Source of the DNA: Gossypium raimondii
Lineage: Eukaryota > Streptophyta > Magnoliopsida > Malvales > Malvaceae
Assembly: GCF_025698545.1 (NCBI RefSeq)
Contig: NC_068569.1
Location: 7,006,001 to 7,070,000, forward strand
Reading direction: 5' to 3'
DNA length: 64,000 nucleotides
Below are positions 1-58,792 of the stretch, piece after piece. Position 1 is the first letter of the stretch. Each line of letters opens with the position of its first letter. A program made the translations under genes and the position numbers. The notes under the pieces were generated by a model. That model was not told the DNA's origin, searched no databases, and saw nothing but the letters and a program-made list of their open reading frames with translations.

Positions 1-1635
1 GGAAAAACGAATATTCTCTCTAGGTTCACCAGAAACGAGTTTTGTTTGGAATCTAAATCCACTATCGGCGTCGAGTTCGCTACTAGAACCCTCCAGGTTT
101 TTCATCTATTTAATCGACTCCATGTTTATTCATCTTCATGTATGTTTTTTAGTTTCTGTTATTTCCTTTTGCTAAAAATGAATAACTCTTGAAAAGTATC
201 TTCAGCTTTGATATTTTGAAGTGTGCTTGAATACTTCTGATCTGATTTAGCTTCGTAATTTTTTGCATGATTAAGTTGATTGTGAAATCTTATGTTCACT
301 TAATTGAATATTCAGTAAATAAAAAATCATCTCAATAAATATCGTGTGATGATTCCGGTTGCCTTATCCTACACTGTGATTTTAACTTGGAAGTTCATTT
401 TGAATGTTAAGAGAAAAGATATCTGGATAATGATGCTCATCGAAGGTGCTTTATGTCGTTCTTTTACTGTGAAAGTCTTAAATCATACGGTTGAGTTGAG
501 GGATTCCATTTCTGTTTTTAGGAACAAATTGCGGATGTAAGATGTGTTGAAAAGTTGATCAATACAAAGAGTCTTTTTACATGTTTCAACTATTTTAGTT
601 ATGGGTTTTCTAACAAAGTAACAAGGGTCATTGGGCCACTCTTTAAGGATTGTCAATATATTATAAAGTAATGAGTATTGTAATAAATGAAGTGCTTGTC
701 GACTTCATTCATCATTTTCAATACATAGGTTGAGATATTACTATTTATAGTAATCTTAAAGAGTGCCCTCGCAAGCAAAATCTTTTATTTACTGAAGCAA
801 CAAAGTTGGAAGGATGAGAAGGCTTTTGTTAGTGAAAAAACAAGCAAACGACTTGTCTGTCGTTTGCAATTTTTCCACTCTCCATTATTATACTACTCCA
901 GGCTGTTTTTATATCGTTTTATTCTCATTTACACTGGCAGGGAGTATATGGTTGCTTCTATTGGCTCATTACATGATTGAGCATTTGACTCTGAGAAAAA
1001 AACATCATTTTCCTGTGTTTTCCAGCCTGTCATGTCAGATTTATTAGAACCTTCTTTGGGTTCTTTGTTAATTAGCAATCATATTGGTGCAGATTGGTAA
1101 ATTGTTGTTTGTATTTTGCAATGAATTTATATTGTTTTTGCTGATATAGGTAGAGGGAAAGACTGTCAAGGCACAGATTTGGGATACGGCAGGTCAGGAG
1201 AGATATCGAGCCATCACCAGTGCGTACTACAGAGGGGCTGTTGGTGCACTTATGGTCTATGACATAACGAAGAGGCAAACCTTTGATAATGTTCAAAGGT
1301 GGCTTCGTGAATTGAGGGACCATGCAGATTCTAACATTGTCATCATGATGGCTGGAAATAAATCCGACTTGAATCATCTCAGAGCTGTTACCGAGGAGGA
1401 TGGTCAAGCTCTGGCTGAGAGGGAAGGTCTTTCATTTCTTGAGACATCAGCACTGGAAGCAACCAACATTGAGAAGGCATTCCAAACTATATTGACTGAG
1501 ATCTACCATATCATAAGCAAAAAGGCATTGGCAGCCCAGGAAGCAGCTGCTAGTACCGCAATTCCTGGCCAAGGAACTACCATTAATGTCACTGATACAT
1601 CAGGAAACACTAAGAGAGGATGCTGTTCTACTTAG
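1..1635 (+). CDS. RABA2: Rab11-type small GTPase, RABA2 subfamily (5' end outside window)
   Basis: Small GTPase of the Rab11/RabA2 group, expected at the trans-Golgi/early endosome in secretion to the plasma membrane and cell plate. Two exons are visible: 1-96, which opens inside the P-loop (GKTNILSRF), and 1150-1635, joined by a phase-0 intron at 97-1149. Exon 1 has the switch I effector region ([13 protein letters not shown]). Exon 2 has WDTAGQE (switch II), NKSD (G4 base recognition) and ETSAL (G5). The tail ends in CCST, a double-Cys geranylgeranylation signal. About 193 residues are present; the missing N-terminus should be about 23 residues, giving the usual length near 216. The KRQTFDN and [11 protein letters not shown] segments resemble Arabidopsis RABA2b/c/d more than RABA2a. 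The family is clear; the exact orthologue (probably RABA2D, from gene order) is inference. Confidence 0.93.
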
Positions 1636-1694
1636 AAAGGTGATAGGTTACATTTGATGCTGTTCTACCTTAAAAGGTCATAGGTTACATTTGA
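1621..1694 (+). repeat. 37-bp tandem duplication spanning the Rab stop codon
   Basis: Copy 1 (1621-1657) covers the last codons and stop of the Rab gene. Copy 2 (1658-1694) lies in the 3' UTR. They differ at only a few bases, so the UTR carries a non-coding echo of the C-terminal codons. Confidence 0.8.
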
Positions 1695-1859
1695 GAAGGT
1701 AAAAATATTTGCTAGGAAGTAGGCCCTTTTTCTGTTTTTGTCAATTTTTGGCTGAGAGGGAGACATGTAAAATACATATATATATTACCTGAATTGTGAT
1801 ATGAAGCTTGTGATGTTTTAAACAACCATAAATTGTTAGTAGAAATAGAATGGAACGCC

Positions 1860-3487: not shown

Positions 3488-5721
<2,234 letters not shown>

Positions 5722-8111: not shown

Positions 8112-8129
8112 GGCGAATCTAGGGGTGTG

Positions 8130-8400: not shown

Positions 8401-8419
8401 ACTGAAATATCAAAATCGA

Positions 8420-11980: not shown

Positions 11981-14221
11981 ATGAAGTTGTTTGCTTTGCT
12001 TCCACAAATTACATTGGTGGTGCTGCTAGTGATCGCAGATCAAAGCATTGCCCTTTCGTTTGCTTCTTTAACCAATGTATATGGGAGGCAAAATGGTGAT
12101 GTTAAAGCTGGCTTTTCAAAGCATTCCACTGCTCTTCAATCTGTATTCATGAAAGATGGAATGGAGTATGGTCGATCACCACCTTTATACGTGTATCCTC
12201 CTTCCTCTTTACCTCCTCAAAGTCCTCCAACGATACGATATCCACCACCATCTCAAGACTACCCACCTCCTATTTATCGACTTCCTCCTCCTATACAACT
12301 CTCACCACCTATTGAAAGTCATCCACCACCAACGCAATACTCGCCACCCGCTCAAGGTCGCACACCACCTACACAAGCTCATTCACCACCAACGCAATAC
12401 CCGCCACCCACTCAAACTCATCCACCACCTACTCAAGGTTGCACACCACCTACTCAAGCTCATCCACCACCAACACAATTCACACCACCCACTCAAGCTC
12501 ATCCTCCACCAAGACAATACCCACCACCTACTCAAGCTCATCCACCACCAAGGCAATACTCACCACCCACTCAAACACATCCACCACCAATGCAATACTC
12601 ACCGCCAACTCAAACTCCACCAAGGCGATACCTGCCACCCACTCAAGCTCATCCTCCACCAAAGCAATACTCGCCACCCACTCAAGGCCATCCACCACCC
12701 ACACAAACTCATCCTCCACCAATGCAATACCCACCACCCACTCAAACACATCCACCACCTACACAAGCTCATTCACCACCAACGCAATACCCGCCACCCA
12801 CTCGAACTCATCCACCACCTACTCAAGGTTGCACACCACCTACTCAAGCTCATCCTCCACCTAGACAATACCCACCACCCACTCAAGCTCATCCACCACC
12901 AAGGCAATACTCGCCACCCACTCAAACACATCCACCGCCCACACAGACTCATCCTCCACCAAGGCAATACCCACCACCCACTCAAACACATCCACCACCA
13001 ATGCAATACTCACCGCCAACTCAAACTCCACCTAGGCAATACCCGCCACCCACTCAAGCTCATCCTCCACCAAGGCAATACTCGCCACCCCCTCAAGGCC
13101 ATCCACCACCAACTCAAACTCCTCCACAAAGGCAATACCCGCCACCCACTCAAGCTCATTCACCACCAACACAATACTCGCCACCTACTCAAGGCCATCC
13201 GCCACCCATTCAAGTTCATCCTCCACCAAGGCAGTACTCGCCACCCATTCAAGGCCATCCACCACCAATACAATACCCACCACCCACTCAAATACATCCA
13301 CCGCCAACTCAAACTCCTCCACAAAGGCAATACCCGCCACCCACTCAAGCTCATTCACCACCAACACAATACTCGCCACCTACTCAAGGCCATCCGCCAC
13401 CCATTCAAGTTCATCCTCCACCAAGGCAGTACTCGCCACCCATTCAAGGCCATCCACCACCAATACAATACCCACCACCCACTCAAATACATCCACCGCC
13501 AACTCAAACTCCTCCACAAAGGCAATACCCGCCACCCACTCAAGCTCATTCACCACCAACACAATACTCGCCACCCACTCAAGCTCATCCTCCACCAAGG
13601 CAATACCCACCACCCATTCAAGCTCATCCACCACCAAGGCAATACTCGCCACCCACTCAAGGCCATCCACCACCTACACTAACTCACCCTCCACCAAGGC
13701 AATGCCCACCACCCACTCAAACACATCCACCACCAACTCAAACTCCTCCACCAAGGCAATACCCGCCACCCACTCAAGCACATCCACCACCAAGGCTATA
13801 CCCACCACCTATTCAAGCTCATCCACCACCCACTCAAACACATCCACCGCCAACGCAATACCCGCCACCCACACAAGCTCATCCGCCACCCACTCAAACC
13901 CATCCACCATCAAGGCAATACTCACCACCCATTCAAACACATCCACCACCAATGCAATACACGCCACCCACTAAAGGTTGTGAACCACCTACTCAAGCTC
14001 ATCCTCCACCGAGGCAATACTCACCTCCAACTCAAACTCATCCACCACCAACCCAATACTCGCCGCCCACTCAAAGTCATCCACCACCAATGCAGTACTC
14101 ACCACCTACTCAAATTCATCCGCAGCCTCCTCAATCTCCCCCTAGCTATGGACCACCTTATCAATATCCTCCACCTTCAGGTGGCTATTCTCCTCCATAC
14201 TTTGCCGTCTCCGTACCATAA
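11981..14221 (+). CDS. Repetitive proline-rich (extensin-like) cell-wall protein, 746 aa
   Basis: Intronless gene for a secreted wall glycoprotein. Residues 1-25 are a signal peptide (hydrophobic LLPQITLVVLLVIA core). A non-repetitive stretch of about 50 residues follows, then from about residue 67 nearly the whole protein is short Pro-rich units alternating PPPTQ, AHPPP, RQYPPP, QYSPP and THPPP. Runs of two or three Pro next to Ser, Thr, His and Tyr are expected to become hydroxyproline and carry arabinosides. The Tyr residues could take part in cross-linking. Cys is rare (GCTPPTQ twice, RQCPPP, GCEPPTQ). There is no C-terminal eight-Cys domain, so this is not a HyPRP. It is close to the repetitive PRP/early nodulin-75-like group and probably the positional counterpart of a proline-rich gene between the PP1 and RPB7 genes of Arabidopsis. 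Open frames on other strands and phases here are by-products of the repeat. Confidence 0.9.
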   Translation: MKLFALLPQITLVVLLVIADQSIALSFASLTNVYGRQNGDVKAGFSKHSTALQSVFMKDGMEYGRSPPLYVYPPSSLPPQSPPTIRYPPPSQDYPPPIYRLPPPIQLSPPIESHPPPTQYSPPAQGRTPPTQAHSPPTQYPPPTQTHPPPTQGCTPPTQAHPPPTQFTPPTQAHPPPRQYPPPTQAHPPPRQYSPPTQTHPPPMQYSPPTQTPPRRYLPPTQAHPPPKQYSPPTQGHPPPTQTHPPPMQYPPPTQTHPPPTQAHSPPTQYPPPTRTHPPPTQGCTPPTQAHPPPRQYPPPTQAHPPPRQYSPPTQTHPPPTQTHPPPRQYPPPTQTHPPPMQYSPPTQTPPRQYPPPTQAHPPPRQYSPPPQGHPPPTQTPPQRQYPPPTQAHSPPTQYSPPTQGHPPPIQVHPPPRQYSPPIQGHPPPIQYPPPTQIHPPPTQTPPQRQYPPPTQAHSPPTQYSPPTQGHPPPIQVHPPPRQYSPPIQGHPPPIQYPPPTQIHPPPTQTPPQRQYPPPTQAHSPPTQYSPPTQAHPPPRQYPPPIQAHPPPRQYSPPTQGHPPPTLTHPPPRQCPPPTQTHPPPTQTPPPRQYPPPTQAHPPPRLYPPPIQAHPPPTQTHPPPTQYPPPTQAHPPPTQTHPPSRQYSPPIQTHPPPMQYTPPTKGCEPPTQAHPPPRQYSPPTQTHPPPTQYSPPTQSHPPPMQYSPPTQIHPQPPQSPPSYGPPYQYPPPSGGYSPPYFAVSVP
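13111..13573 (+). repeat. Perfect 195-bp tandem duplication in the proline-rich gene
   Basis: A 195-bp unit (65 codons) starts at 13111, repeats without visible difference from 13306, and begins a third, partial copy at 13501. The exact copies and in-frame length indicate very recent expansion, or a collapsed or expanded assembly. Confidence 0.9.
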
Positions 14222-15347: not shown

Positions 15348-17582
15348 GTGTTTTTCCACATAGTATTGGAGAGGAACATGCAATTGCATCCTCGCCACTT
15401 TGGTCGTAATCTACGGGAAAACCTTGTATCCGATCTCATGAAAGATGCTGAGGGCACTTGCAGGTTCTGTTCTTTCCTTCACAATTCCAATTTCCAGCAG
15501 GGTTTCGAAAAGTTACAACCTTTGCTTGTTTTGGGTTCTGTGATTTTTCCCCTTTGAATTCAGTTTGTTTGATGTTTTTTGAGGTGATGCTATAGCTGTA
15601 ATTTTATACCTAGTTGATGGGGGATTCTAACATGGCGGCTCCCTTTTAAGCTTCCAATGGATTCTGGTTATTTGCTTGGTTCTAAAAGCAATCTAGGGGC
15701 AAACATAACTGAATAGTGTAATTGGTAAATGTGCAGTGGTAGACATGGTTTTGTGGTGGCAATAACAGGCATAGAGAACATAGGGAAAGGCTTGATTCGA
15801 GACGGGACAGGGTTTGTGACATTCCCTGTGAAGTATCAATGTGTTGTATTTAGACCATTTAAAGGGAGATCTTGGAAGCTGTTGTTACCATGGTGAACAA
15901 GGCATGCATTCCTTCTTTTTCACTTTGTTTGATTCTTTTGTTAATTGGGTAATTAGATTTCTGCCACCTTTTTTTTTGTGTGTGTGTGTGAGTATGTGAT
16001 TATAACTAGATTTGTGGTTTATGGTTTACATACAGATGGGATTCTTTGCAGAAGCTGGACCTGTTCAATTTTTCGTTTCTAACCATGTAAGCTTTCTTTT
16101 TTTTCCTTTACGTAATAGCGTAGTTAGGAAATTGCATGTCTTTTGTCATCAACTTATTTATCATAATCCCTTTTAGATATATGTTCCTTATATTTTCTTA
16201 TATATGATGTCTTCCAAGGTTCAAATTTTGCTTTCCTTTTCAAAGTTATGGAGTTGGCGTAATTATTTGATAACTTATAATTAAGATAAAGTAGGGATTA
16301 TGAGAAGCATAGCCGAAGACTATATAAATGATAGAATCTAGGATTTTCTATATTTGATTGTTTTATCGGTCTAGTTTCTTTGTTAGGGGGAGATTTTCTA
16401 TTTCTGGTGTCACATAGGAGAAAATATGAGTCTGTTTTTAGAGATTCGCTATCTGACCATTGCAAAGAGGAAGAAGTTGTTGCTTTCCTCTAAGTATGCT
16501 TGTTTCGATATGTTTCAAGATAAGTTTCATTCATATATAACAAACTTTCATTTCCTGGTGATGTTTATACATGATTATGTACTTGCATATTTGACTTGTT
16601 AATTGTAATGAAGTTTCTTTGTCAATTATAGTAGCTTTGCCATATTCTTTCATTTCCGAATTGCTGGATGGGCTCATAAATTCCCTTTTCTATGATATCT
16701 CTTCCACAAATGTGTAATAATTTTTTGTGCGTGTTTTCTCAGTTGATTCCTGATGATATGGAGTTTCAGTCTGGAGATATGCCAAATTATACTACCTCTG
16801 ATGGATCGGTATGCTTCAGTTCCATTTAAGACAAGTAATTGTTAATTTTTCTGTTGCAGAAGTTTAGTTTTTCACTTTGATATTTATTTTCTTTTACAGG
16901 TTAAGATTCAAAAAGATAGTGAAGTGCGGTTGAAGATAATTGGAACTCGAGTAGATGCTACGGAAATAGTACACACTTTGACCCTTTCTCAACTCATAGT
17001 TTTATAATCATTTGTGTTGCTTCTTCATATTTGAATATAATTTTCATAATAGCAAAATGAATCACAATTCACAATCTTGTTGGTGTGATTAACTTAGATG
17101 TTTAGATGCTAACCTGATAAAGAGCTCGTTTCACTGAGAATTTCAAGCATTCCTTAATGCAACTAGTAACTGATTACTGAAACCAGTGAGTGGTCAAATT
17201 ATAAGTTGCATGGAGGATGGCTAGTGCTAATGGAGGAGGTTATTGCCTTCACTAGGTAGCATTCGAGTTCAAGTTTCTTAATGATGCAATTATTGCGATT
17301 GTATCACAATTTTTATAACCATGTGATTTAAGAGCCATGCTGTTCAGAATGAAAATTCACATCCGTGTATGTGGTTTTGTTGCGGTTATGAGATCAAAGA
17401 TGATCTAATTTCGAGTCAATATTACGACATTTATGTAGTTTGTATTTTATGTACTTTTTTTAAGGTTTAAAACTATTTGATTCACGTCTCATCTAATTTT
17501 AATGGCCTTTTCCTTGCAGTTCTGTATTGGTACCACAAAAGACGATTTCTTGGGTGTGATTAATGATCCCACAACAACTTAA
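15348..17582 (+). pseudogene. NRPB7: RNA polymerase II subunit RPB7 gene, decayed
   Basis: RPB7 forms the Pol II stalk with RPB4 and binds nascent RNA. Six exon-like blocks align end to end with plant RPB7: 15348-15463 (FFHIVLERNMQLHPRHFG), 15737-15901 ([20 protein letters not shown]), 16036-16086 (MGFFAEAGPVQFFVSNH), 16743-16808 (LIPDDMEFQSGDMPNYTT), 16900-16968 (VKIQKDSEVRLKIIGTR) and 17520-17582 (DDFLGVINDP, then stop). Two changes argue against a working gene. The start codon position reads GTG (15348). In exon 2, near 15864-15866, one G is missing compared with the expected FKGEILEAVV coding, which shifts the frame and brings a TGA at 15892. The donor after exon 2 is GC, not GT. The frame is open upstream to an ATG at 15054, which would add 98 unrelated residues. 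A sequencing error could explain one change but less easily all of them. Confidence 0.85.
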
Positions 17583-18627: not shown

Positions 18628-18867
18628 ATGAAATTCAGAAGCTTTTGTTTTTGCATCCCAGGATCAAAGCAAGAAGATTCAGACAGTTCTTCTAACAAAG
18701 CAAAATCCCATAAAAAGTCTGACAAAAGTGGGAAAAAGGAAGGGAATGTGGATGATGCTGATTATCAGGGTGCCATTACTACTACTACGACAGCCAGCAG
18801 TGATGCTGGAATGGCTGCTGCTGTAGCAGTGGGTGCCACTACAGCACATGCCTCCGCTGTGGAATGA
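18628..18867 (+). CDS. Small Ser/Lys-rich protein of unknown function, 79 aa
   Basis: Encodes MKFRSFCFCIPG followed by a hydrophilic Ser/Lys/Asp-rich middle, a Thr run and an Ala-rich tail (MAAAVAVGATTAHASAVE). I chose the ATG at 18628 because it directly follows an acceptor-like TTTGCAG, suggesting a non-coding first exon upstream; an in-frame ATG at 18583 is possible. The CFC near the N-terminus could be acylated, but that is speculation. No domain is recognised. It lies downstream of the RPB7 remnant on the same strand and could also be a fragment of a larger gene. The downstream 300 bases look like a plant 3' UTR. Confidence 0.5.
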   Translation: MKFRSFCFCIPGSKQEDSDSSSNKAKSHKKSDKSGKKEGNVDDADYQGAITTTTTASSDAGMAAAVAVGATTAHASAVE

Positions 18868-31795: not shown

Positions 31796-34257
<2,462 letters not shown>

Positions 34258-35308: not shown

Positions 35309-37639
<2,331 letters not shown>

Positions 37640-38897: not shown

Positions 38898-39335
38898 CAG
38901 GATGCTTTATAAGAAGAATTTGTGAAATCGCGCCCTCGTGGATGCGCTTTTGCTACAGTAGGTCCTGGAAAAAATAATTTCGAGTTGATATTTCTGAGCA
39001 AATAGTATAAAAACGTTTCAAGCAGGATGCTTTATGAGAAGAATTTGTGAAATCGCGCCCCGTGGACGTGCTTTTGCTACAGTAGGTCCTGGAAAAAATA
39101 ATTTTGAGTTGACGTTTCTGAGCAAATAGTATAAAAACACTTCAAGCAGGATGCTTTATGAGAAGAATTTGTGAAATCGCTACTCGTGGGCGCGCTTTTG
39201 CTCTGATGAGTCTGGAAAAATAATTTCGAGTTGACGTTTCTGAGCAAATAATATAAAAACGCTTCAAGCAGGATGCTTTATGACAAGAACTTGTGAGATC
39301 GCGCCCACGTGGACGCGCTTTTGCTACAGTAGCAT
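38898..39335 (+). repeat. Subterminal tandem repeat of the MULE, about 124 bp x 3.5
   Basis: Units begin CAGGATGCTTTAT at 38898, 39023, 39147 and 39269. Each contains AATCGCGCCC, a CGTGGACGCGCTTTTGCT-like core and TTTCTGAGCAAATA. The array ends just before the transposase reading frame and probably holds promoter or transposase-binding sites. Confidence 0.85.
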
Positions 39336-41160
39336 GTTTGGGTTGAGGCTATAAATGAGGCAAAAAATGTTCTCAGAATGCATAAGTTACAGCAGAAACA
39401 ATTTAGAGAGGCTAAGAAGGTTAGAGTTTCAAATATGAGTGAACGTATTAGTGTTGTTATTTATTATGATGGTGAGGTTTGCCACATTGAGAATGGTGTT
39501 GTTTTTTTGTCGGAGAATACGGTGCGACTAGTTTTTAACCAGAACATAGATTTGACAGAACTTCGTAAAAGAATTAGGCGTAAAATTTTTGGAATGACAC
39601 CAATGAAAGTTCTGTCTATTACTTATCGATTTTGTTCTTCTGTTGATCTGGTGACATATGACTCGTTCGACATAAAAGGTGCTCGTAGCTTGGAGGCAAT
39701 GGTGCAGACTCATCTTGTTAGTGGAGCACCTTATATTGAGTTATATGCACAATTTACACCGTCAAATGATGTACTTGCGACTGGTGTTCGAGATGTATAT
39801 ACGACCCTTGGCCGACACTCGGTTAACGGGTTACAAAACACGAAACAGCCCATGTTTGGTAGTGGTGTGGAATGCACATCCCTTACAAGACACTCTGTCG
39901 GTGGATGGGACATGTACGTCAGTGGCTCGATGTTTGATGCTGGAAATACGTATTAGGGAACGGCATCAAGTTCTAGTGGTTGGCAATCTACATCAAATTG
40001 GGGACGTTATGAAATGCCCAGAAGAAGGGATGATGTACTCCCTACGATGTTCACCGGTGAGGGGACCTCGTACGCTGCAGATGATTGTGGGTTAGAAGAT
40101 GACTCCGATTGGATCCACCTCGAGAGCCCAGGCCCGATGGTGCAGAAGTTGGCTTATTTTCTGAACCGGAGCCTATTCCAACAGAACCTGAAGATGCTGA
40201 AAGGAGTTCAGATGAAGAAGAAGATCCACGATTCAGAACATACTCACCTCCAGCCCACATGCATAATGTCGATCTGTCTGCAGATGATGTGTTAGAGTTT
40301 CCAGACCTACCACACCGGTTGCATGATCGTACCAGTTCGGGGCTAGATTCGGGTGAATTTGAAGTTGGTAATCAATTTACCAACGAGGATAGTTTTATTG
40401 GTGCTTTGAAACAACATAGCATAAAAAACGACATTAACTACCACTTCGTTAAATCCAAATCTGATAAGTTTGAGGCGAAGTGTGCGGTGCAAGACGGCAC
40501 ATGTTCATGGAAAATCTACGCCTCGTTAAGGAAAAGGACAAGGTTGTGGGAGATTAAAAAGAACAAAGGTCCACATACATGTGCTGCAGGTACAGTATTG
40601 ACGGTTTCTGAATAATACTGTTATTATGTAATGTTGCATTATTTAATGTACTCCATTTATAGGTGTTTCACAATATCATCTCAAGATGGATTCAGCTATG
40701 TTAGCTAGTTTGATACTACCCACGGTGAAGGCAGATCCAGGACTTCAGTTCCGGTCTTAATTGCCAATATTCGTAGCCAAATGGGGTACACGCCCTCTTA
40801 TTGCAAGGCTTGGATAGCTAAGCATAAGGCGTTGGAGAAGATGCATAGTGGGTGGGACGCTTCATATAATGAAATATGACAGTGGTGTCAAGTGCTAGAG
40901 AGTTACGTCCTAGGTGCCATCATAGACCTTGAAACGGAACATGCGTACTACAACGACCAATTGCTACGTGGATGCCAAGTGTTCAAACGCCTGTTTTGGA
41001 CCTTTAAACAATGTCGAGATGCATTTTCATACTGCAAACCATTGGTACAAATTGACGGTACCTTTATGTTTGGTAGGTATACTCATTGGCTATTGCTTGC
41101 AGTGACACAGGATGGCGGTGGGAGAATTCTTCCAATTGCGTTTGCAATAACACCGGGGGA

Positions 41161-43919
41161 TGTAATGGCCCAAATTTGAGGTTATCAGAACAGTGGTTTC
41201 GAGACCACAAATCCGATGAGAAAAATTTTATTTTTCTTATATTTTTATGGTCTAAAATTTCACAAAATGATTTTTTGAAAATTTCGTTCGAAAATTTCGA
41301 TGTTTGGGCACTCAATTTAGTCAAAAGGACTAAATTGTAAAAGTGCAAAAGTTGAGTTCTACATGTTAGAGGTGTCCAATTGTTATGAAACTTTAAATTG
41401 GAGGTCCTTATATGGTAATTATACTATTGGTAACTTGGTAGACAAAAATGGACATTAGATAAGTGAAATAGAAAATTTTTAAGTTAGGGGCAATTTGGTA
41501 ATCTAGTAATTAAAATGAATTAAAAGGGAAAAAGATGGCAAAAATCATCATCTTCTTCATTAGGACGAAATCAGCAAGGGGGGAAGCCATAGTTAGGGTT
41601 TTCAAGCTTCCAAGCTCCATAGTAAGTGATCCCAAGTCCCGTTTTAATGTTTTTACGTTTTTGGAGTCCCTTAGCTTAATTTAGCTTATTCTAGCAATAA
41701 TTTAACCTAGGGTTTATATTTGGAAAAATACCCATAGGTGAAAAGTGTTTATTTTGATGTTTTATGATAGAATATGAAGCTAGAAATTATGTTAAACAAC
41801 TTTTGCTAAGCGATTTTAAGTGAAAACGAGTAAAACGACATAATCGGTAAAAATACCTAATGTTCATAAGTACATGTTAGAGTGGGAATTTGATGTTGCC
41901 ATAGAAGGGAAAAATGTTCAGAATGTTATAAAACATAAGAATAAGAGATTAAGTTTAATTTCCGAGCCTTGGGGCAAAAATGTAATTATGTAAAAGTTTA
42001 GGGGCAAAATTGTAATTTTGAAAAAGTTAGAGTCGAGGGCTGTTTTGATGAATGTGATTATTAAATAAGTTAAATTTACTATTTTAGATCAAGAAGTACT
42101 AAACTCGAGGTTAGACAAAGGAAGAATAAAGTTGAAGACTAAGTTGGTGAATTTGGCTATAATTGGTACCGAGGTAAGTTTACGGTAAATAAATGCAATA
42201 TTTCAATATTTATTATCAATGCTGTTAATTTCAGAAATTATGAATTTATTTTATGAATTTATTTGATGATGACCCAAGCATGAGATGATAGAGAATTAAA
42301 ATTTGAAAGTCCGTTGATACATAAGGATGGTCTTGGATACGAATGTCATGACATTTGGGTAAAGAGATCCCATATAAGACCATGTCTGGACATGGCATTG
42401 GCATCCTTAAGATCATGAGAGGTCCTCAGAAGACCATGTGCGGGACATGGCATGGGCACCGAGACGAGAGGTCCCATGTAAGACCATGTCGGGACATGGC
42501 GTTATACCGAGATGAGATGTCCCCTATAAGACCATGTCTGGGACATGGCATGGGCACCAACATCAGAACATCCCATGTAAGACCATGTCTGGGACATGGC
42601 TTTGGCATGTTATTATCAGAAGAGACTCGAGTATCCTTATTATTTCAATGTAGCTCAACGGGCTTGTAAACGAATTATGTTCATGAAAGTTCAGTTTAAA
42701 GCATAAATGGCAAGCTCAGGTAAGTTATAAGAGTTAAGAACTTATTATACTATCAATTGATGTTCAACGATGCAGCAAGATTTGAGTAAGTTATGTACAC
42801 AAGTATTCTAAGTAAACAAGCAAGAGAACTAGTATGAGATTAACTAAAGAGTAAACTAGAGATATAGACATTTGAGTTTAATTATTTAAGTTAAATATTG
42901 TTATTTATTTGCTAGTAAACTTACTAAGCTTTATGCTTACTTCTTTTATTTCTCTTTCTCTTATAGTATTGCAAAGCTACTTCAAGGATCCTAAAGAAGT
43001 CGGAGATCGTCCACACTATCAACCACAACTACTCGGTATTTTATATCGAATCACGTTTGAGTTATGGCATGTATAGGGATTTAGTTATTTTGTATGTTTG
43101 TGATTATGATTTTGCTAAAGAATGGTGTGTAAGTATTTGATGATGTATGGTTATTAAAATGGTTAAGTATGAAGGTATTTGTTGTTATAAGAGTCTAGGT
43201 GATAAATTATGTATGGAAATCATGAAAGGATGAAATTTTGCAAAGAAACAGAATTCAGGCAGCAACAGTGACGTGACTTTGAAAAATCACCCAAGATAGT
43301 ATAAAATGAATTATAGGGTGAATGATATATGGAATTAAAGCTTGTTGAGTCTATTTTCATGGAAAAATAACGGTGTAGTGAAAGGAATTTTATATTTTAA
43401 GATATGTGAATTTTCGTGAGACAGGGTCAGAACAGTTTTTGGTGTCCCCTGTTTTGAGTTTAGAAAATTATTAAAAATTGTACAAAAATGGTTATGAGTT
43501 ATAGTTTATATGTATAGATTTCTCATTGAGTTTATTTTCTGTAGAAACAAGTAAGAACTTCATATGAAAATCCTACAGTGAGAAAACTTATTTTTAGTGA
43601 CTAGAGGTCAGGGCAGTCAGGTGGTGAAACAGGGGAGACTTTAACTAATAAACTGTATTAATTGGCTGAACCAAAAATTCTAAAAATTTTATGGTGAGTA
43701 GATATATGAGTCTAGTTTCAGGTAAAATTTACGGAATTAAATTTCGAGTTCTGTAGCTCAAGTTATAATTAATTTAGTAACTGCTGTGCGATTGGATAGA
43801 TTTGCTGTAAATAGTGAAATAAATTTTCAAACCTAGTTTTTATGCTCCGAATTGGTAAGATAAGCTAAGTAATGCCTCGTGCTCAACTCCGGAAACGGTC
43901 TCGGGTAAGGGGTGTTACA
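41161..43919. mobile_element. Solo LTR of a Tekay/Del-like Gypsy retrotransposon, 2.76 kb
   Basis: Begins TGTAATGGCCC and ends GGGGTGTTACA (TG...CA), flanked by a perfect 5-bp duplication GGGGA (41156-41160 and 43920-43924). No internal gag or pol domain is present, so this is a single LTR left after recombination between the two LTRs. It lies in the catalytic region of the MULE transposase, so it is younger than the MULE insertion or arrived in a progenitor copy. LTRs of 2-3 kb with TGTAA...TTACA ends are typical of Tekay/Del Gypsy elements in plants (family knowledge). Confidence 0.88.
42340..42612. repeat. Array of palindromic units inside the solo LTR
   Basis: About five units of roughly 55-65 bp, each with AAGACCATGTCTGGGACATGG or a close variant. 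The core CCATGTC-TGG-GACATGG is a 7-bp palindrome with a 3-base loop. Confidence 0.8.
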
Positions 43920-45164
43920 GGGGAGTCGTCTGATGACTCAGATTTCTTACTCTAGGTTAATGAGGCATGTGTGCCCCCAACCTGATATCTGTGTTATTTC
44001 AGATCGGGGTACAGGTATACTAGCTGCATTTGATGGACAGAGAAGCTTATGGCAGCGCACACACCATCGATATTGCCTAAGCCACGTTGCTTCAAACTAC
44101 TACAGGCAATATCCATCTAAGAGCGAATGTCGACAAGTGACCAACATGAGTATTTAGTCTCTATCTGTGTTATTTCTTTTGTCAATTTGAATTAGTTGTA
44201 AATGAAGAAGTGGTATGTAATATTTACTATGAACTTATTTTGGCAATGTATGAAATAAATAAAGATTGTTTTCACGAGATGTTGGCAATTTTACGTTCAA
44301 TTAACGGAGAAGGGGAGGACTACCTTTGTAACATACGTTTCGAACAGTGGGCACAAGCATACGATGGCGGCCTATGATATGGTCATATGACCTCAAACCT
44401 GGCTGAATGCATAACTTATGTTCTAAAAGGAACGCGCCATCTATTGATAACATCGGTTGTGCGAGAGATATATTTTCGTTTGGCGATGCTATTTCCAAAG
44501 CGAGCAGCGAGTTATGCAGGCCAGATGCAGGGAGGCTATGTATGGTGCAGTAAGGTAGTACAAGAAATTAACAAGGCCAAGGCGCGAGCGAATACTATGC
44601 ACAGAGTGTGTCACAATCGAGACAACTTATGGTTTCGCGTGACAGAGTTTGACAGACCGCACCAAGGTGTTGTTGGCGGGCAATATCGTGTACACTTGCG
44701 AAACAGGACTTGCCACTGTGGGATGTTTGGTGCACTTCGTTATTCATGCGCTCATGTTATTGCAGCTTGTCAGAATCTCCGCCTGGATCCGATGAGCTAT
44801 GTGGACGAAGTGTATAAATTAGAAAATATGTATAACATTTGGAGACACGTTTTACCACCGATCCCAGATGAACGTAAGTGGCCACCCTTATCTCTTGCTC
44901 CTTTTAAGCTGTTACCGGATAGAGAATTGCGTCGCAAACCAATGGGTCTACATTGCTCGACTAGAATACGTAACAATATGGATATTCGAGAAACAGCTAG
45001 TCAACATAAGTTGTGCGGATAGTGTAGGAATCCAGGCCATACAAGTCGATCATGCCCTAATCGCAATAGTTGAATGTAATTGTAAAAAAATTATATTTTT
45101 TTTAATTATTAATTGATAATTGTATTAATTGTTAGTAAAATTATCAAATTATTAATTGTTAGTA

Positions 45165-45485
45165 CCAGTCAAGGGTTAAGGTTAGGGTTAGGGTTAGGGT
45201 TTTTAAGTTAAGTGTTTAGGGTTTTTAAGTTAAAGGTTAGGGTTTTTAAGTTAAGGGTTAGAGTTTAGGGTTTAGGGCTAAGAGTTTTGGGTTGAGAGGT
45301 TTTTCAGTTAAGTCAAGGGTTTAGGGTTTTTAAGTTAAAAGTTTAAGGTTTTTAAGTTAAGGGTTAGGGTTTAGGGTTTTTAAGTTAAAAGTTTAAGGTT
45401 TTTAAGTTAAGGGTTAGGGTTTAGAGTTTATGGTTTTTAAGTTAAGGGTTAGGATTTTTAAGTTAAGGGTTTAGGGTTTGTCAAT
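45165..45485 (+). repeat. Telomere-like interstitial repeat inside the MULE
   Basis: Irregular array of GGGTTAGGGTTAGGG, TTTAGGG and GGGTTTTTAAGTTAA units between the 3' ends of the transposase and mobile domain genes. It mixes plant (TTTAGGG) and TTAGGG units with a longer unit of about 30-45 bp, so it is not a true telomere. Confidence 0.75.
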
Positions 45486-50077: not shown

Positions 50078-53000
50078 ATGACGTCGTCAACAACGAGCGC
50101 GGTTTACATCCACGTCATCGAAGACGTCATTAGCAAGGTTCGCGACGAGTTCATCAACAACGGTGGACCAGGCGAAGCTGTCCTCAATGAACTCCAAGGA
50201 GTAAAAGCCTTCTCCAATTTCCTTTTTATTCCAATTTTTTAAAATACGATTTTTAGGGTTTGGTTATTTGTTTTAGAAACTAGTAGGTTTTGGGACTTTA
50301 TGCGTTTAGATTTGATCTGATTGAAACTTTAGGGTTTGTTAATAATGTTATTGGAAGGAAATGATCTAGTTGAATTGATTACGTGGGATATTGGGTTTTA
50401 GCTTTGGGAGACGAAGATGATGCAAGCGGGCGCAATATGTGGTCCTATAGAGAGGTCTACGGGTCAGAAGCAACCCACTGCCGGTGGCCCAATTACGCCA
50501 GTGCACGATCTCAATGTCCCTTACGAGGGGACTGAGGAGTACGAAACTCCTACTGCTGATATGCTTTTCCCTCCGGTAACGGCTGTATTTTGACTGTTTT
50601 TATTCCATAAAATTGCGGTGATATTTTTTGTTTTTGTGATTTTTAGATATGGGGGTTTTAATTGTGTAGACTCCGTTGCAAACACCTGTTCCTACACCGT
50701 TGCCAGGAAGTGCAGATGGCTCTATGTATAACATCCCTACTGGAAGTAGTGATTATCCTACTCCTGTGAATGATGGTGCTAGTAATGCTGATGTGAAAGG
50801 TGGGAGGCCAAGCCCTTACATGGTAAATGCTTTGTAACTACCAGTCTACCACTTCCTTTAGGGAACATTGTGCTACAGTAGTTGTAATTTTCTAATTGCC
50901 ACAGAAAGGAAAAAGTAGCTGTTTGGCTTGTTGTAGATTTATTTCTGATATATTCTTATTGTTTTTTTGTTCCGCAGCAATCTCCTTCTCCTTGGTCAAA
51001 TCAAAGGACTCCACTAAGCGTAGATGTTAATGTTGGTTAGTATGATGTTAAAAGAGCAATCAGTTCTAATGCACATGGTTTGTTGATGCTAACTACTATT
51101 TTCTTGTAGCTTATGTGGAAGGGCGGGATGAGGTGGACAGAGGAACCTCAAATCAACCCCTGACACAGGTAACTCCTGTTATGAGTAACATTACAATTCC
51201 ATAATGGCATCTGGTTTTTTTATGGTTTGAAAACTCATGGGTCATGTGAAAAGGGATTGGTGTCGCAACACTTTAATCTGAATTTTCTGGGAAATATGTC
51301 CATCAAAAAACGAACTGTTGCGTAAGTTGGTGATTAGTTTTAATATTGGAGAAAATACCAGGACTTCTTTATGATGCCTCCTGGAAAGAGAAAACGTGAG
51401 GATTTTGCTACACAATATAACAACGGTGGATATATACCCCAACAAGATGGAGCTGGGGATTCTACATCCGAAGTTGCAAAGACAGAGGTTAGTGGTCCTT
51501 TGTGTAATATATCTACAAATCCGCATTTATTTTTCGTTGAAATATCTGGGTTAAATAGTAATATTGAAATTAGAGTTTTATGATTTTTCTGATTCATTTG
51601 TACTTCCCATTGTTCAGTAAAGAACATTCTCAGGATTAAAAGAATGTGTTCTTTATTATCTTTTGGTTGACCCAGAATGCTCTCATAGGTTAAAGGTCTT
51701 GGCAGTCGGTATGTGGCAGGTCTTTGAGATAGTGTGATAAGATGAGGTTGCTTTTCTCAACTTATAATGATCCCCTAACCTTTTAACCTGAATTCTTTTA
51801 TCCATTATTGTTAGATCTGCTAGAGACATGTTTTCTTTTTTTTTTGTCCCTGCATTCTTTTCTTTTTTTTATTACACCTTTTATCTTATTAAAAATGGAA
51901 AAGCAAACTTACTTCAAGCTCTGAGCTATAAGAGGAATATTCGTAAGGATACTTTATCATTCTAATTGTGGTCATTGTGATAAGATGAGGTTGGTTTCCT
52001 CCAGTTATAAATGATCCCTCCACCTGTTAGCCCTAATTTCTTTTTCTCCATTATTGTTAGATCTGCTTGTGACAAGCTGTTCCTTTTTTCTTTTATCCCT
52101 ACGTTCTTTTCTTTTTTGCTTATCTTCTATCTTAATAAAAATGCAAAAGAAAACATAGTTCAAGCTCTGAGCTATAATTTGATAAATGTTTATAATGAGA
52201 CTTCGTTATTCCAGAAGGGTACTTCTGTACCAGAATCGTTGTTGGAATATGTGGGTTTGGATTTGTTCTACACCATTCTTAATCACATGGTTCTGAACTT
52301 CAGGGAAGTAAGGGTTGTAATTTCCTGGGTAGACATGACTCAGCAACCACTGGCAAAACCAATATATTAGCTCACTTTGCTACATCATCACTGAAGATTT
52401 CTCAACTGGATGGACCAATTCCTGATCCATTTGAAGATATGCTTTCCACTCCCAATGTAAGTATCATATGCTTCCTTAAGTCAATTCCTAATCTAATTTG
52501 TGTAATTCTACAACTGACACCTTATGCATATGGTTTGGAATGACCTTGTCTCTTTGTTTCTTGTATGCATCATTGGAGAGTTTACTAACTTACAGGCTGT
52601 TGCCTTTTTATTTTCTTCTTTCACCTTAAAGATATACAATTATCAAGGAGTTGTCGGTGAAGACTATAATGTAGCGAACACACCGGCTCCCAATGGTAAT
52701 TTCAATGGGTGAACTGAATCTTGCATCTTTTATATGGCTACTCTCTCTCTCTCATCTAAGCACCTTATTTTTCTGGTTGACCTGCTTGTTTGTTTCATTG
52801 CCAGACCTTCAGGCTGCCACTCCTGCCCCTGTTGCCCAAAATGATACAGGAGACGACGACGATGATGAACCATTGAATGAAGATGACGATGATGATGATT
52901 TGGATGATGTGGACCAGGAGGAGCTGAACACGCAGCATCTAGTTTTGGCTCAATTTGATAAGGTGATTTTGCTAATTTGCAGCATCCATCATTGCTTCCC

Positions 53001-53311
53001 ATAGCCTATTCAGTAATTTGTATTTCTGCAAGTTTTGGTAGTCACCTTGTGCTGACTATAAACAAAGATGTTGTGCATTTTTGTTAACAGGTAACACGTA
53101 CAAAGAGCCGATGGAAATGCACCCTGAAGGATGGCATCATGCATATAAACAATAAGGACATTCTCTTTAATAAGGTGTGCTTCTTACTGAATGATATGTG
53201 GCTTGTTATTTCACTTGCATGCTTTCTGGCTTTGAGTCACTCTTCCTAAATCCAAGTTTCCTTTGCTAAATGCTTATGTTTTTGCAGGCAACAGGCGAAT
53301 TTGACTTCTGA
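50078..53311 (+). CDS. TFIIA-L: Transcription initiation factor TFIIA large (alpha/beta) subunit
   Basis: General Pol II factor that binds TBP-TATA and stabilises the pre-initiation complex. Eleven exons: 50078-50200, 50402-50575, 50670-50822, 50978-51035, 51110-51168, 51362-51487, 52304-52456, 52632-52695, 52805-52962, 53091-53174 and 53288-53311, all GT-AG, giving 391 residues. The N-terminal helical domain (YIHVIEDVISKVRDEFIN...VLNELQGLWETKM) and C-terminal beta-barrel (QFDKVTRTKSRWKCTLKDGI, DILFNKATGEFDF) are conserved. They are joined by a variable linker with PIPDPFEDMLSTP and an Asp-rich acidic stretch before the last domain. In yeast and animals the linker is cleaved in some species; here that is unknown. 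The start is the first ATG of exon 1 and matches the family. A C/T-rich leader with ACCCTAG (about 49908) resembles telo-box-containing leaders of housekeeping plant genes. Confidence 0.95.
51715..52185 (+). repeat. Tandem duplication in intron 6 of the TFIIA gene
   Basis: A block of about 245 bp starting GTGATAAGATGAGGTTG is repeated (about 51733-51970 and 51977-52180), with TTATTGTTAGATCTGCT and CAAGCTCTGAGCTATAA in both copies. The copies differ at many sites, so it is old. Confidence 0.75.
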
Positions 53312-54064: not shown

Positions 54065-54442
54065 TCACTGTGCATCATTGACAAGAACACATCTGGTTTG
54101 GAACAAAGCGAACAAAGTGGAAGCGTCCACATATGGTGCCCCACCCCCAACTGGCTCTTTCCAGGCAAATGCTGTCGGTACAAGTTCTGCAGCGGCTTTC
54201 ATGTCATCAGACTGTGGGAAGGGATGGGGGGATAAGGCGAGCGGTGTGAGCAGGGGAATTGGAGTTGCAGCAGCCTTACAAGTCCCAGCAGAAAACCCAA
54301 AATCTGGTTTCACGTGATCAATCTCAAGCGATGCCGGGGCATGCATTTGTAGCCTGGTCCTGGACATGGGTTGCTTCCCTTCTTTGCTATTGCCCATTCC
54401 CATAAATACGTTGTCAAATATGTTGCTGTTACCCCCCTCCAT
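54065..54442 (-). CDS. Small single-exon protein of unknown function, 125 aa
   Basis: Starts MEGGNSNIFDNVFMG with a short basic segment GKQPMSRTRLQMHAP, followed by Pro/Ala-rich sequence (PIPLLTPLALSPHPFP) and a C-terminal stretch with GGGAPYVDASTLFALFQTRC. No signal peptide, membrane segment or known domain is seen. Composition and codon use look like real coding DNA, and the opposite strand is less protein-like. It is convergent with the TFIIA gene. I cannot assign a function. It may be a plant-specific conserved unknown. Confidence 0.6.
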   Translation of the reverse strand: MEGGNSNIFDNVFMGMGNSKEGKQPMSRTRLQMHAPASLEIDHVKPDFGFSAGTCKAAATPIPLLTPLALSPHPFPQSDDMKAAAELVPTAFAWKEPVGGGAPYVDASTLFALFQTRCVLVNDAQ

Positions 54443-54474
54443 TGAAGTTGAAACTTGGCAGAGAAATAATTGAT

Positions 54475-56640
54475 ATGAATCAATTGTTAAATTACGAAAG
54501 GGATGGATTGGGTGAGTGAATCAAGAACTTGTCTTGGAAACCGGGAAAATGGGCTCGTTTTAACAGGGTGGGTAATTTCAAAGACAGTTATGAACTGATG
54601 GGCAACGGTCGCTTAACTCATAATTATTAACATTTGGGAGATTATTTTATTTTAGTGGCTAATAATATTCTTCCATTAAAGAATGAACAGTTATCCAAAG
54701 TCAGACATTTGATCGTTGTTTTTCCATACATGTTTTCCTTTTAACTGCAACAAACAAATTGCTTTTGTTTCTAAACAGAAAAAAAAAAAAAACGGTTAGT
54801 AATTTCAAGTATTTTTTTAGTAAGAACCAACAGAAGAATGAATTTAAGAAATTTGAGTGCAAAAATATTTTAGCTTAATTCAAAGTCAAACTCATTCATT
54901 CAATAGCTAAATTGTTTTGCGGAAGATCTGTTGTAGCCTCGACTTTTTATTTTTGGGGAAAATTTACATTTTGCTACCTGTACTTGACTTCAAGGTTCAA
55001 ATTGGTACATAAAGTTTACTTTTTATCCAATTAGATACCTAAGTTTAGCTTTAAGGTTCAATTTAATTTAAATTTGATTTATATATAATTAAATCCTTGA
55101 ATTTGACCTTTTAATCCAAATTAGTACTTAATTATTTGAACTAATTTGAACTATGAAATCAAGTTTAAGTACTTAATTGGACCAAAAAATTAGTACTAAA
55201 TTAAAGTTCAAGTCAAGTTTAGATACTTAATTGGACTAAAAAATCTTAAATACCAATTTAAACCTTGAAACCAAATTAAAATAGCAAAATATATATTTAG
55301 TATTTTTTCAAACACAAAATATTAATTCTAAGATCATTTGAATTTATCATTGTGAGCAAAGCTTTGATCTTTTAGTTTATTTATTTGTCATCCTACCATC
55401 ATCAAATCATGATTGCAGCCAAAATGTCACTATATTTAGTAAATTCATTTGCATTTATCCTTGTGAGCACAGCTTTGATCTTTGTAGTTTATTTATTTTT
55501 CATCCTACCATCATCAAATCTTGATTGTAGTTAAAATTTCACTATATTTAGTAAATTAAAATTTTTTTTGAACTATAAGAGTAAGACAAGCCCTAACAGC
55601 AACGCGACTAGCACGACTTAAATCCAATCACACCTGAAATGGTGAATATCCTAACCATCAAACTAACACACAAACTATTGCAATATTAATTAATTTTAAA
55701 AGCTACATATGCAGCTACTCTATCATTTATTTTCTCAAATGATGTTCTATTTAATGTTTAAACTCATTGTTCCATCTCACGTCAGTTAAGAAATATAGAA
55801 AGGTGGTTGTTACAGAGTATAAATCTAAACAAATATGTCTATTTTATGAAGGATACGTAATCTAACATTTAAAAAAAATAAAGTTGTAAAAGTTGAAATT
55901 TAATAAATATTTAATAAAATGATTGCACACAGATATTTATATTAAAATACGACTTAACAGAGAAAGTAAACAATGTGAAGTGATAAGATTGAAATCTTAA
56001 AAGGTAAGTCGATTTCTAATAGACTTAATTAATCTCTTATAATCGTCAGCTGTCAGCATTGACTATTGAATTTCAAATTTTCTAGCTCTGATTTTGTTGT
56101 TTCACTTAAAAGAGAAAAAATAATTGATGGGTTTTTTTTTAAAGATTTAATTATAAACTTGGCCTCAAATTATATTAATTTTCTCACTTAAGTATTTAAA
56201 ATGGTACTTGAAATTCAATTTCATCTCATTTTGCCCCAAAATACAATGCTAGTCAATATGACATGTTTTTGTTGGACATAGTACATGTTTGGGTAAAATG
56301 AGATGAAATTGATAATTTAGGTGTCACTTTAAATTAAAAAAATTAAATATAGTTTAAAGGTTAATTTTGTATTCAAATCTTTGTAATTATTGTTACTTAA
56401 AATTAGGAAATCCAAGGACTTCAAACACATTGAGGATAGGTTTTATGGAACATTAGGATCACATAATTAATTTTATTTTTGTTCAATAAGATCACATAAT
56501 TGAATTTAACTGAGTGTTACGGAATTTGGATTACAAACAGATTAGAGGGCAATTTTCTCTAATGTTTCTTTTCATTTTCAAGCAGTTACTAAAATTTTCA
56601 GTTAATAGAGTGAAAATTTCATTTTGTTCTCTCAAAATAT
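54475..56640. other. Intergenic region with decayed repeats
   Basis: AT-rich. Short, partly repetitive phrases with TTCAAATTGGTAC and ACTTAATTGGACC in both orientations at about 54970-55270 suggest a worn element. A clear 111-bp tandem duplication is at 55335-55554. No gene. Confidence 0.5.
55335..55554. repeat. 111-bp tandem duplication
   Basis: Copies begin at 55335 and 55446, each containing CATCCTACCATCATCAAATC, with about 10% differences. Confidence 0.8.
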
Positions 56641-56698
56641 TTATAATCCAAAAAAAAAAAAAAAAAACATAAGGAACAAATTTCCATTAAAACACTCA

Positions 56699-58792
56699 TC
56701 AGCGACCTATATGAAGAACTGTATCTGTACTCGACAAGGAATTCACAGAAAGACCCGTCCCAACTGATGAAGAAAACGAAACTATACAATCTGAGGCTAC
56801 GTTACTTGCTAAAGATACGTTAATAGCAGTGCTCTGAGGAGATAATGGTAAGGTTTGAAGGATAGAAGATGGATTATTTTGGGCATTGTCAAGTGGTATA
56901 TCAGGCAAACTGGCAGTGCCTTCCAGATAGCTCACCGCTTCTTTAATGGTGGGTCTCAAATCTGGTTTGGGGTTGGAACAAAGCAGGCCTAGTTTCAGAA
57001 CCTTCTCAATCTCCTCCACCACGTAATTGCCTTGTAATCTTGGATCGATAACATCAACAATGGCATCTCTTTTCCAGCACCTATTGACTAAATCAACTAG
57101 AAAAATGTCTTGGGGTGGCGCATTTGGTTCAAATGGCTTCCTCCCACAAGCAACTTCAAGAAGAAAAGCCCCGAAAGCAAACACATCGGCAGCTTTAGTA
57201 GCCCTTCCCATTCGGGTGAGTTCCGGATCGATATATCCTAGTGTTCCTACGAGGCGAGTCGTTTGTGGATCGCCGTCACGGTCGTACAATCTGGCAAGAC
57301 CGAAATCTCCGAGCCGTCCATTTAGATTGGAATCTAAGAGAACGTTGCTGGCTTTGACGTCTCTATGGAGCACAACTTGTTCCCATTCTTCATGGAGATA
57401 AAGAAGAGCCGATGCCACCCCTTTGATGATTTGGAACCTTTGAAACCAAGTAAGGGTGGGTTTATCATCGTCGAAGAGGAACTTGTCAAGGCTGCCATTT
57501 TCCATAAGATCATATACCAAAATGAGTTCTTTCTTACGCCTGCAATACCCAAGAAGCCGCACCAAGTTCTTATGCCTTAGCCTTCCCATGCTAACAATCT
57601 CTGAAACAAACTCCTTCATCCCCTGATTTGTTTCATGGGATACTTTCTTTACTGCAATTTGTTCATTGGAATAAGGGAGTGTACCTTTATAAACTTTCCC
57701 GAAACCTCCCGATCCAAGAAGCTGCTTGTCTTTGAAACCTTTGGTCGCTTTGTACAGTGTCTTGTAAGAGAACCTTTGAGGTCCATATTCCTTTTCCCAG
57801 TCTTCATGTACTTCCTCGTATTTCTTCATCCTGTAAACATATGCTGCTCCAATGATTATTAACAGCAAAGCAGCAGCTGCAATGATCGAAATTAATCGAA
57901 CTGTATTTCTTTGTCCACCATTTTTGGGAAGCTTTGGAAGCTTGGATATGTCAAGGCCTTGTGCTTCTCCGCTTCTATTGAAGCTCCAGCCCAGAATATA
58001 ATGGCTACTACTAGTGCTTTGAATTGAACCAGTTGCAGCAGAGAAACCAACACACATGACATCCTTTAGAATGCCCGAGAGATCGATTGATGTCGACAAG
58101 AGAGGCTGGTCTGGTTTTGGGGTTTTATCTGGCGCCAAGGTTACGTTGAGCAGTTCTTCTCCACCATTGTAGTCTATCCAAACCTGTATTGGATGTCCAT
58201 TTTTGAGGTCCAAACTCGTATTCTTCCTTTCTTCATTGGAAAAATATCCTGCTGGAACGGATTTGTTTGATTTCACGCCATTCAGATCAATTCCTACATG
58301 ATTGTCATCTATGTCGCCCATGTCAAGACTGAAGATGGTATCAAACTCCACAGCGAAGAAATGGTTGGAGGAATTGCCATTGTTTGACTCATTAACGAGT
58401 CCCAGATATTGGACTGCCTGAGCATGGCTAAAATCCGTAGATTCTGATATGACAAAGGCAAGTCCATGGCCACTAGATTCTTTGGATCCAGGAACAATGG
58501 CGATTACGAAATTCGTGGAGAAGGAAAGAGATCCGGCTGATCTTGAAGACGAAGAAACATTGAAGTTTATAGGAGATGGGTAGAAAGCATGGCCTTTCAG
58601 CAGTTTTAAATTATTGGTGAGCTGCAATAGACCATTGGAGCGGATGTTGGCACTCCCATCAAGTTGTAGTTTCGCATCACGGAAGCCATGGTTATAAATG
58701 AACTCTTCAGCTTCTTGAGCCTTTGCCATGGAAATCACAGCCACCAGGCACGAAAACAGCCAAAAAGGGACTGATGTAAAAGCAGGAGCCAT
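56699..58792 (-). CDS. L-type lectin-domain receptor-like kinase (LecRK), 697 aa
   Basis: Single-exon plasma-membrane receptor kinase for extracellular signals; members bind eATP, NAD-related or wall-derived ligands, and the ligand here is unknown. Residues 1-26 are a signal peptide. About 28-275 is a legume-lectin domain (FIYNHGF start, FAVEFDT and DIDDNHVGIDLN loop, IQVWIDYNG). About 298-320 is a membrane helix (LISIIAAAALLLIIIGAAYVY region). About 353-630 is the kinase. Key kinase residues are present: GSGGFGKVY loop (360-368), Lys382 in IAVKK, Glu398, HRD 476-478, DFG 496-498 and GTLGYIDPE activation end. With RD (Arg477) it should be an active kinase. The Ser-rich C-terminal tail is about 65 residues. 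Clade IV- or II-like by its DWEKEYGPQRFSYKTL juxtamembrane; the clade is uncertain. The start is the only Met giving a signal peptide. Confidence 0.95.
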   Translation of the reverse strand: MAPAFTSVPFWLFSCLVAVISMAKAQEAEEFIYNHGFRDAKLQLDGSANIRSNGLLQLTNNLKLLKGHAFYPSPINFNVSSSSRSAGSLSFSTNFVIAIVPGSKESSGHGLAFVISESTDFSHAQAVQYLGLVNESNNGNSSNHFFAVEFDTIFSLDMGDIDDNHVGIDLNGVKSNKSVPAGYFSNEERKNTSLDLKNGHPIQVWIDYNGGEELLNVTLAPDKTPKPDQPLLSTSIDLSGILKDVMCVGFSAATGSIQSTSSSHYILGWSFNRSGEAQGLDISKLPKLPKNGGQRNTVRLISIIAAAALLLIIIGAAYVYRMKKYEEVHEDWEKEYGPQRFSYKTLYKATKGFKDKQLLGSGGFGKVYKGTLPYSNEQIAVKKVSHETNQGMKEFVSEIVSMGRLRHKNLVRLLGYCRRKKELILVYDLMENGSLDKFLFDDDKPTLTWFQRFQIIKGVASALLYLHEEWEQVVLHRDVKASNVLLDSNLNGRLGDFGLARLYDRDGDPQTTRLVGTLGYIDPELTRMGRATKAADVFAFGAFLLEVACGRKPFEPNAPPQDIFLVDLVNRCWKRDAIVDVIDPRLQGNYVVEEIEKVLKLGLLCSNPKPDLRPTIKEAVSYLEGTASLPDIPLDNAQNNPSSILQTLPLSPQSTAINVSLASNVASDCIVSFSSSVGTGLSVNSLSSTDTVLHIGR

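Follow-up and report, generated by a model that had tools for sequence, protein, structure and literature searches.

The 64,000-nucleotide stretch of the Gossypium raimondii genome analysed here in its whole length (the window, G000:C5:7006001-7070000) carries a run of genes from a RABA2-type Rab GTPase to an L-type LecRK and very probably descends from a gene neighbourhood that predates the split between cotton and Arabidopsis, of which it is a surviving copy. The ancestral run would have been RABA2, PP1, a proline-rich protein (PRP), RPB7, HAI, an SDR tandem, the TFIIA large subunit (TFIIA-L), a small gene here called MEGGN, and LecRK. Ancient genome multiplication would have copied this block, and each copy would then have lost different genes (fractionation), leaving several partial copies in the cotton genome and partial copies on Arabidopsis chromosomes 5, 3, 1, and 2. 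The SDR pair would be ancestral and lost from the chromosome 5 copy, the transposon now in the window block would have inserted later, and RPB7 would be decaying in the window copy while its partner on contig C8 keeps open exons. The locus is a case of ordinary fractionation after polyploidy.

Gene order in the window

Seven families occur in the order RABA2, PP1, extensin-like PRP, RPB7, HAI-type PP2C, TFIIA-L, and LecRK, with strands + + + + - + -. This is the order given for the same seven genes in the initial annotation, and all seven are present. Stop-to-stop frames were listed, those of the gene regions were read, splice joins were chosen, and domains were confirmed with Pfam. The identity of the PRP comes from reading its sequence, and that of PP1 includes an exon matched by PF00149 (Metallophos). 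The SDR pair lies on the minus strand between HAI and TFIIA-L. The genes of the run are as follows.

1-1635, + strand: RABA2-type Rab GTPase, 5' part cut off by the window start; Ras domain in the last exon (E 6.2e-45)
3488-5721, + strand: PP1 catalytic subunit (TOPP type), three exons by exon reading; PF00149 match at G000:C5:7010901-7011464
11981-14221, + strand: extensin-like PRP, a 763-codon stop-to-stop frame with PPPT-type repeats
15348-17582, + strand: RPB7 (NRPB7) copy, damaged; SHS2_Rpb7-N and S1 domains on read-through
18628-18867, + strand: small MKFRSFCF... gene with no function assigned and no Pfam match; a relative lies within the C8 block
22622-24480, - strand: HAI-type clade A PP2C, four exons; PP2C domain (E 2.5e-64)
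31796-34257, - strand: SDR-B, tropinone-reductase-like, five exons; its best match among solved structures, and so among solved proteins only, is At1g07440 (1XQ1, E 8.9e-105)
35309-37474, - strand: SDR-A, tropinone-reductase-like, five exons; adh_short domains
50078-53311, + strand: TFIIA large (alpha/beta) subunit; PF03153 (E 3.2e-45), last exon ATGEFDF
54065-54442, - strand: small conserved MEGGNSN... gene (MEGGN) with no function assigned, an extra anchor
56699-58792, - strand: L-type LecRK; Lectin_legB (E 2.8e-78) and Pkinase (E 1.6e-46)

Corresponding segments in Arabidopsis

The window is related to four Arabidopsis segments, on chromosomes 5, 1, 2, and 3, and not to one. Arabidopsis order was taken from locus numbers printed in papers; these numbers run in chromosomal order. 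Passages of the cited papers, and the PDB, give the following loci.

RABA2d is At5g59150, RABA2b At1g07410, and RABA2c At3g46830 (PMC9950755)
TOPP2 is At5g59160, TOPP1 At2g29400, and TOPP5 At3g46820 (PMC4091783)
At5g59170 is described as extensin (PMC1420293)
NRPB7 is At5g59180 (PMC7062917)
HAI1 is At5g59220, HAI2 At1g07430, and HAI3 At2g29380 (PMC12301882)
LecRK-II.1 is At5g59260 (PMC13353682), a locus also given as a lectin protein kinase (PMC10079790)
TFIIA alpha/beta is At1g07470 (PMC12367599)
SAG13 is At2g29350 (PMC7867171)
At1g07440 is the molecule name of the SDR structures 1XQ1 and 2Q45 (PDB)

Families shared with the window keep its order in all four runs, in one reading direction or the other. 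The run At5g59150-At5g59270, which the initial annotation had proposed as the conserved block, has the window families in the same order, with six of the seven loci confirmed in print; the exception is At5g59230, putatively the TFIIA-like gene. NRPB7 is a named gene in this run, whereas the window has a damaged copy, and the run is not known to have an SDR pair. At1g07410-At1g07470 has RABA2, HAI, SDR, and TFIIA in window order, with At1g07440 one locus step from HAI2 and between RABA2b and TFIIA; PP1, PRP, and RPB7 are not known from this run. Read against rising numbers, At2g29350-At2g29400 has the PP1-HAI-SDR order of the window, with SAG13, an SDR, three locus steps from HAI3, and At3g46820-At3g46830 has its RABA2-PP1 order. 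These last two runs retain fewer members than the window. Descent from a conserved block is supported as proposed, with chromosome 5 alone being too narrow a match. The choice of a strict Arabidopsis ortholog segment among the four would be a matter of inference.

A survey of PP2C genes lists the three HAI loci and describes 13 Arabidopsis PP2C pairs in duplicated segments, with no HAI pair named among these in the passages available (PMC2612031). BAC (bacterial artificial chromosome) ends in a Brassica oleracea map match At1g07450, At1g07460, and At1g07480; the passages of that paper are silent on a RABA2-to-LecRK block (PMC3276173).

Paralogous blocks in the cotton genome

The nearest copies of the window genes were located by whole-genome searches with eight queries (750,779,957 bases, 281 contigs), and the matches lie on contigs C1-C13. 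Blocks were counted from the six non-window RABA2 loci with at least 81% identity, taking other window families within 450 kb. All six have at least one window family within this reach, and five of the six have at least two. In the resulting 13 anchor pairs the side of RABA2 is as in the window in every case (13/13) and the orientation in 11, both exceptions being LecRK (C10 and C5:30.9 Mb). Distances from RABA2 are as follows.

C2 block: PP1 25 kb, HAI 127 kb
C7 block: PP1 13 kb, TFIIA 41 kb, MEGGN 44 kb
C8 block: RPB7 5 kb, MEGGN 11 kb, with the MKFRSFCF relative between these two
C10 block: PP1 56 kb, HAI 331 kb, LecRK 425 kb
C4 block: HAI 175 kb, SDR 193 kb
C5:30.9 Mb block: LecRK 64 kb

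The blocks on C2, C7, and C8 (younger) and on C4 and C10 (older) share window anchors, side, and, except for LecRK, orientation. In the searches made, each holds only a subset of the window families, and the window has the most members seen. With their shared anchors always on the window's side of RABA2 and mostly in its orientation, the partner blocks fit polyploidy-derived paralogs of the window.

The last exon of RABA2 is 92% identical to the C2 copy, 91% to that on C8, and 90% to that on C7. In the genome search the nearest copies of the window HAI are on C2, C4, C10, and C13. TFIIA-L has a single other copy in the genome, on C7, and MEGGN has two other matches (E <= 0.001), one beside this TFIIA and the other 5-6 kb past RPB7 on C8. 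On C8, just as in the window, RPB7 and MEGGN enclose the relative of the MKFRSFCF gene. Identity to the window gene is 32 out of 67 aligned positions (E 9e-9 in a single comparison), and tblastn at 1e-5 did not find it.

The rows used for these counts were selected as follows. The 14 RABA2 rows were reduced by the window's own row and by seven whose identity was no higher than 73%; inspection of coordinates found no kept anchor within 450 kb of those seven. The eight strongest PP1-like non-window rows were used out of 71 for PF00149, and for HAI, out of 21 rows, those of four non-window loci, other PP2Cs being excluded. Among 47 SDR rows, four exon-split tropinone-reductase-like non-window places were used, the C13:58.1 cluster being taken as one place; single-exon rows of about 30% identity were excluded. 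For the remaining families every match outside the window was used: 13 LecRK rows (E <= 1e-170), three RPB7-like loci, two MEGGN loci, and one TFIIA locus.

Further neighbourhoods with SDR and LecRK genes are present at G000:C9:41.89-41.91 Mb and G000:C13:58.01-58.13 Mb, the latter with PCNA, a short FA_hydroxylase match, SDRs, and LecRK. They are possible further partners of the ancestral block. On C2 and C4 alike, PCNA precedes RABA2 by about 0.6 Mb. PCNA and FA_hydroxylase were chosen as extra markers from Arabidopsis chromosomes 1 and 2, and their placements are suggestive only with regard to block relations.

Two classes of synonymous divergence

Synonymous divergence (Ks) from the window copy is 0.42 for PP1 on C7, 0.44 for PP1 on C2, 0.38 for TFIIA on C7, 0.61 for RPB7 on C8, 0.64 for HAI on C2, and 0.82 for RABA2 on C8. 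For PP1 on C10 it is 1.98, and for the C4 SDR 1.97 (to SDR-A) and 2.37 (to SDR-B), with HAI on C4 saturated. RABA2 of C2, C7, C4, and C10 and HAI of C10 and C13 are excluded from this set. The young class (C2, C7, and C8) therefore has Ks of 0.38-0.82 over six gene pairs, a twofold spread, and the old class (C4 and C10) has values of about 2 or saturated over four. The anchors within a partner block share similar synonymous divergence, and PP1 copies outside the blocks (C3, C2:26.6, C13, C8:58, and C9) are saturated. On this division the window's younger partners are C2, C7, and C8, and its older ones are C4 and C10. We infer that the younger event is the cotton-lineage multiplication and the older the core-eudicot (gamma) triplication, both of these being events established under those names.

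The SDR pair as a probable original member of the block

The SDR of the C4 block, read in five exons, is about 16 kb from HAI, with the same side and strand relation as in the window. Frames of at least 90 codons in the gap between them read as reverse-transcriptase-like or integrase-like, and no host genes were recognised among them. SDR-A and SDR-B are 63% identical to each other, and the window SDRs are 65% and 68% identical to the C4 copy; the tandem is therefore approximately as old as the split between the block classes. Because the C4 SDR lies near HAI, SDR-B matches At1g07440, and the tandem is old, the pair most likely belonged to the block from the start and was lost from the chromosome 5 segment. 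In a tree of seven SDR sequences the three cotton SDRs form a group at 86/92, which is short of the starred level and is drawn open.

SDR proteins have a TGxxxGxG cofactor motif and a catalytic Tyr-xxx-Lys. SDR-B carries both. SDR-A keeps the cofactor motif and the Lys, with Gln (CAA) at the position of the catalytic Tyr (36331-36329, minus strand); the Tyr is kept in SDR-B and in the C4 SDR, from PDB alignment and codon reading. The ratio of non-synonymous to synonymous divergence from the C4 SDR is about 0.15 for SDR-A and about 0.13 for SDR-B, so that constraint is alike. SDR-A may be a retained pseudoenzyme, since its overall constraint resembles that of SDR-B despite the lost Tyr.

Damage to the window RPB7

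The window RPB7, as read, is a damaged copy. At the position of the C8 start ATG it reads GTG, and a one-base deletion relative to C8 lies in exon 2. The C8 copy (C8:348-350 kb) has six exon stretches, all open and the first beginning with ATG, with its splicing read in part. An intact frame from an ATG, expected of a functional NRPB7, is not present in the window copy; its open frame has upstream in-frame ATGs, and the deletion would still break the protein. The exons are otherwise kept, with 87% protein identity over 172 codons. Non-synonymous and synonymous divergence from C8 are 0.095/0.606, values that suggest either recent decay or an error of assembly behind the deletion. The GTG start is harder to explain in the latter way than the deletion is. 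A GC splice donor after exon 2 was considered as a third lesion and dropped, being common to the window and C8 copies.

Alternative explanations

The window could be a block of the chromosome 5 type into which the SDR pair was inserted within the cotton lineage, and the pair had been taken for an insertion in the initial annotation. No SDR is known among At5g59150-At5g59270, and the genome search (E <= 1e-15) gave no SDR row on C2, C7, or C8, nor near the C10 block. Against this stand the SDR that the older C4 block has beside HAI, ordered and oriented as in the window, the position of At1g07440 beside HAI2 and of SAG13 close to HAI3, and the low identity within an old tandem. Insertion of the pair is accordingly very unlikely. 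Rab, PP1, PP2C, SDR, and LecRK are all large families, and their members might have gathered without common descent of their order. Random placement, however, gave at most 4 pairs over the whole genome and at most 7 when confined to 30% of it (100,000 trials each), against the 13 found, and the small families TFIIA, RPB7, and MEGGN fit equally well. Chance gathering is refuted by this placement test and has a negligible probability.

Selection, rather than inertia, might also hold the neighbourhood together as a cluster related to stress and abscisic acid (ABA). HAI-1 is described as one of the clade A PP2Cs, which regulate ABA signalling negatively (PMC3563958), and RabA2b as stress responsive (PMC8526897). 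Every other block seen is, however, without several members, in a pattern of loss resembling ordinary fractionation, and the roles of RPB7 and TFIIA are housekeeping, with RPB7 decaying in the window. A selected cluster is thus highly improbable. A broader version is likewise highly improbable, in which the union of the window genes (RABA2, PP1, PRP, RPB7, HAI, the SDR pair, TFIIA-L, and LecRK) would approximate the neighbourhood before the core-eudicot triplication, selection would have held a stress-linked RABA2-HAI-SDR core together in several lineages, and SDR-A would have been retained as a non-catalytic tropinone reductase relative with a new role.

Several points weigh against descent of the window from the ancestral run as it is set out above. 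LecRK is reversed at both RABA2 loci with a LecRK nearby (C10 and C5:30.9 Mb), and its place in the ancestral order is therefore the weakest. The spacing from RABA2 to HAI is looser than in the window on both C4 (175 kb) and C10 (331 kb), and the 450-kb reach was picked after the data were seen. The best solved match of SDR-A is 6Y4D; the noroxomaritidine/norcraugsodine reductases come next, and 1XQ1 is in fourth place by a few bits. The SDR tree leaves the window SDRs, the C4 SDR, and At1g07440 unsplit, so that orthology to At1g07440 is neither supported nor refuted by it. At5g59230, putatively the TFIIA-like gene of the chromosome 5 run, was not found in the literature searched by locus number.

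Read as a descendant of an ancestral block, the locus illustrates reciprocal gene loss. SDRs remain in the window, on C4, on Arabidopsis chromosome 1, and presumably on chromosome 2, while RPB7 persists on Arabidopsis chromosome 5 and cotton C8 but is decaying in the window. The locus also shows that ancestral genes can be mistaken for insertions when a single Arabidopsis segment is used for comparison. This principle is a textbook one and of low surprise; the locus is a useful anchor for HAI and RABA2 ortholog calls in cotton.

Other features of the window and its flanks

One further element lies between the SDR pair and TFIIA-L.

38898-45022, + strand: MuDR-type transposon remains (approximate extent); DBD_Tnp_Mut (E 9e-11) and SWIM (E 2.7e-4)

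Its description as an insertion in the initial annotation is upheld, the element being judged a real one. A 124-bp tandem repeat is present on its left side, and degenerate AGGGTT telomere-like tandem arrays flank it at 38778-38818 and 45172-45479.

The extensin-like gene contains a long degenerate repeat array (12303-14121) with a higher-order unit of 195 bp in 2.9 copies; the 94% matches between these suggest recent expansion of the array within the gene. In a TFIIA-L intron, at 51733-52177, there are 1.8 copies of a 246-bp unit, with 81% matches. LecRK and its flanks (55278-60637) have a dispersed copy at C10:52.15 Mb (G000:C10:52150001-52160000), with 96.5% identity over 56230-59000, flanking pieces at 78-91%, and Ks of 0.035. 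This copy is a recent duplication outside the block. Scans of the window for Rfam families and tRNA were empty.

The left flank of the window has two HSP20 genes (one of them checked), a PPR gene, and a subtilase. The right flank has a copia-like element (by reading), a second LecRK, a Toc75-type gene, a PPR gene (by reading), a Myb-domain gene reading like LUX, a Pumilio gene, a ZIP transporter, and a DVL peptide gene. These flank genes would fit At5g59090-At5g59570 and At3g46613-At3g46880, and HSP20 and Pumilio would have places on chromosomes 1 and 2 as well. Since they would fit the same Arabidopsis segments as the window genes, the collinear region probably reaches past the window edges.

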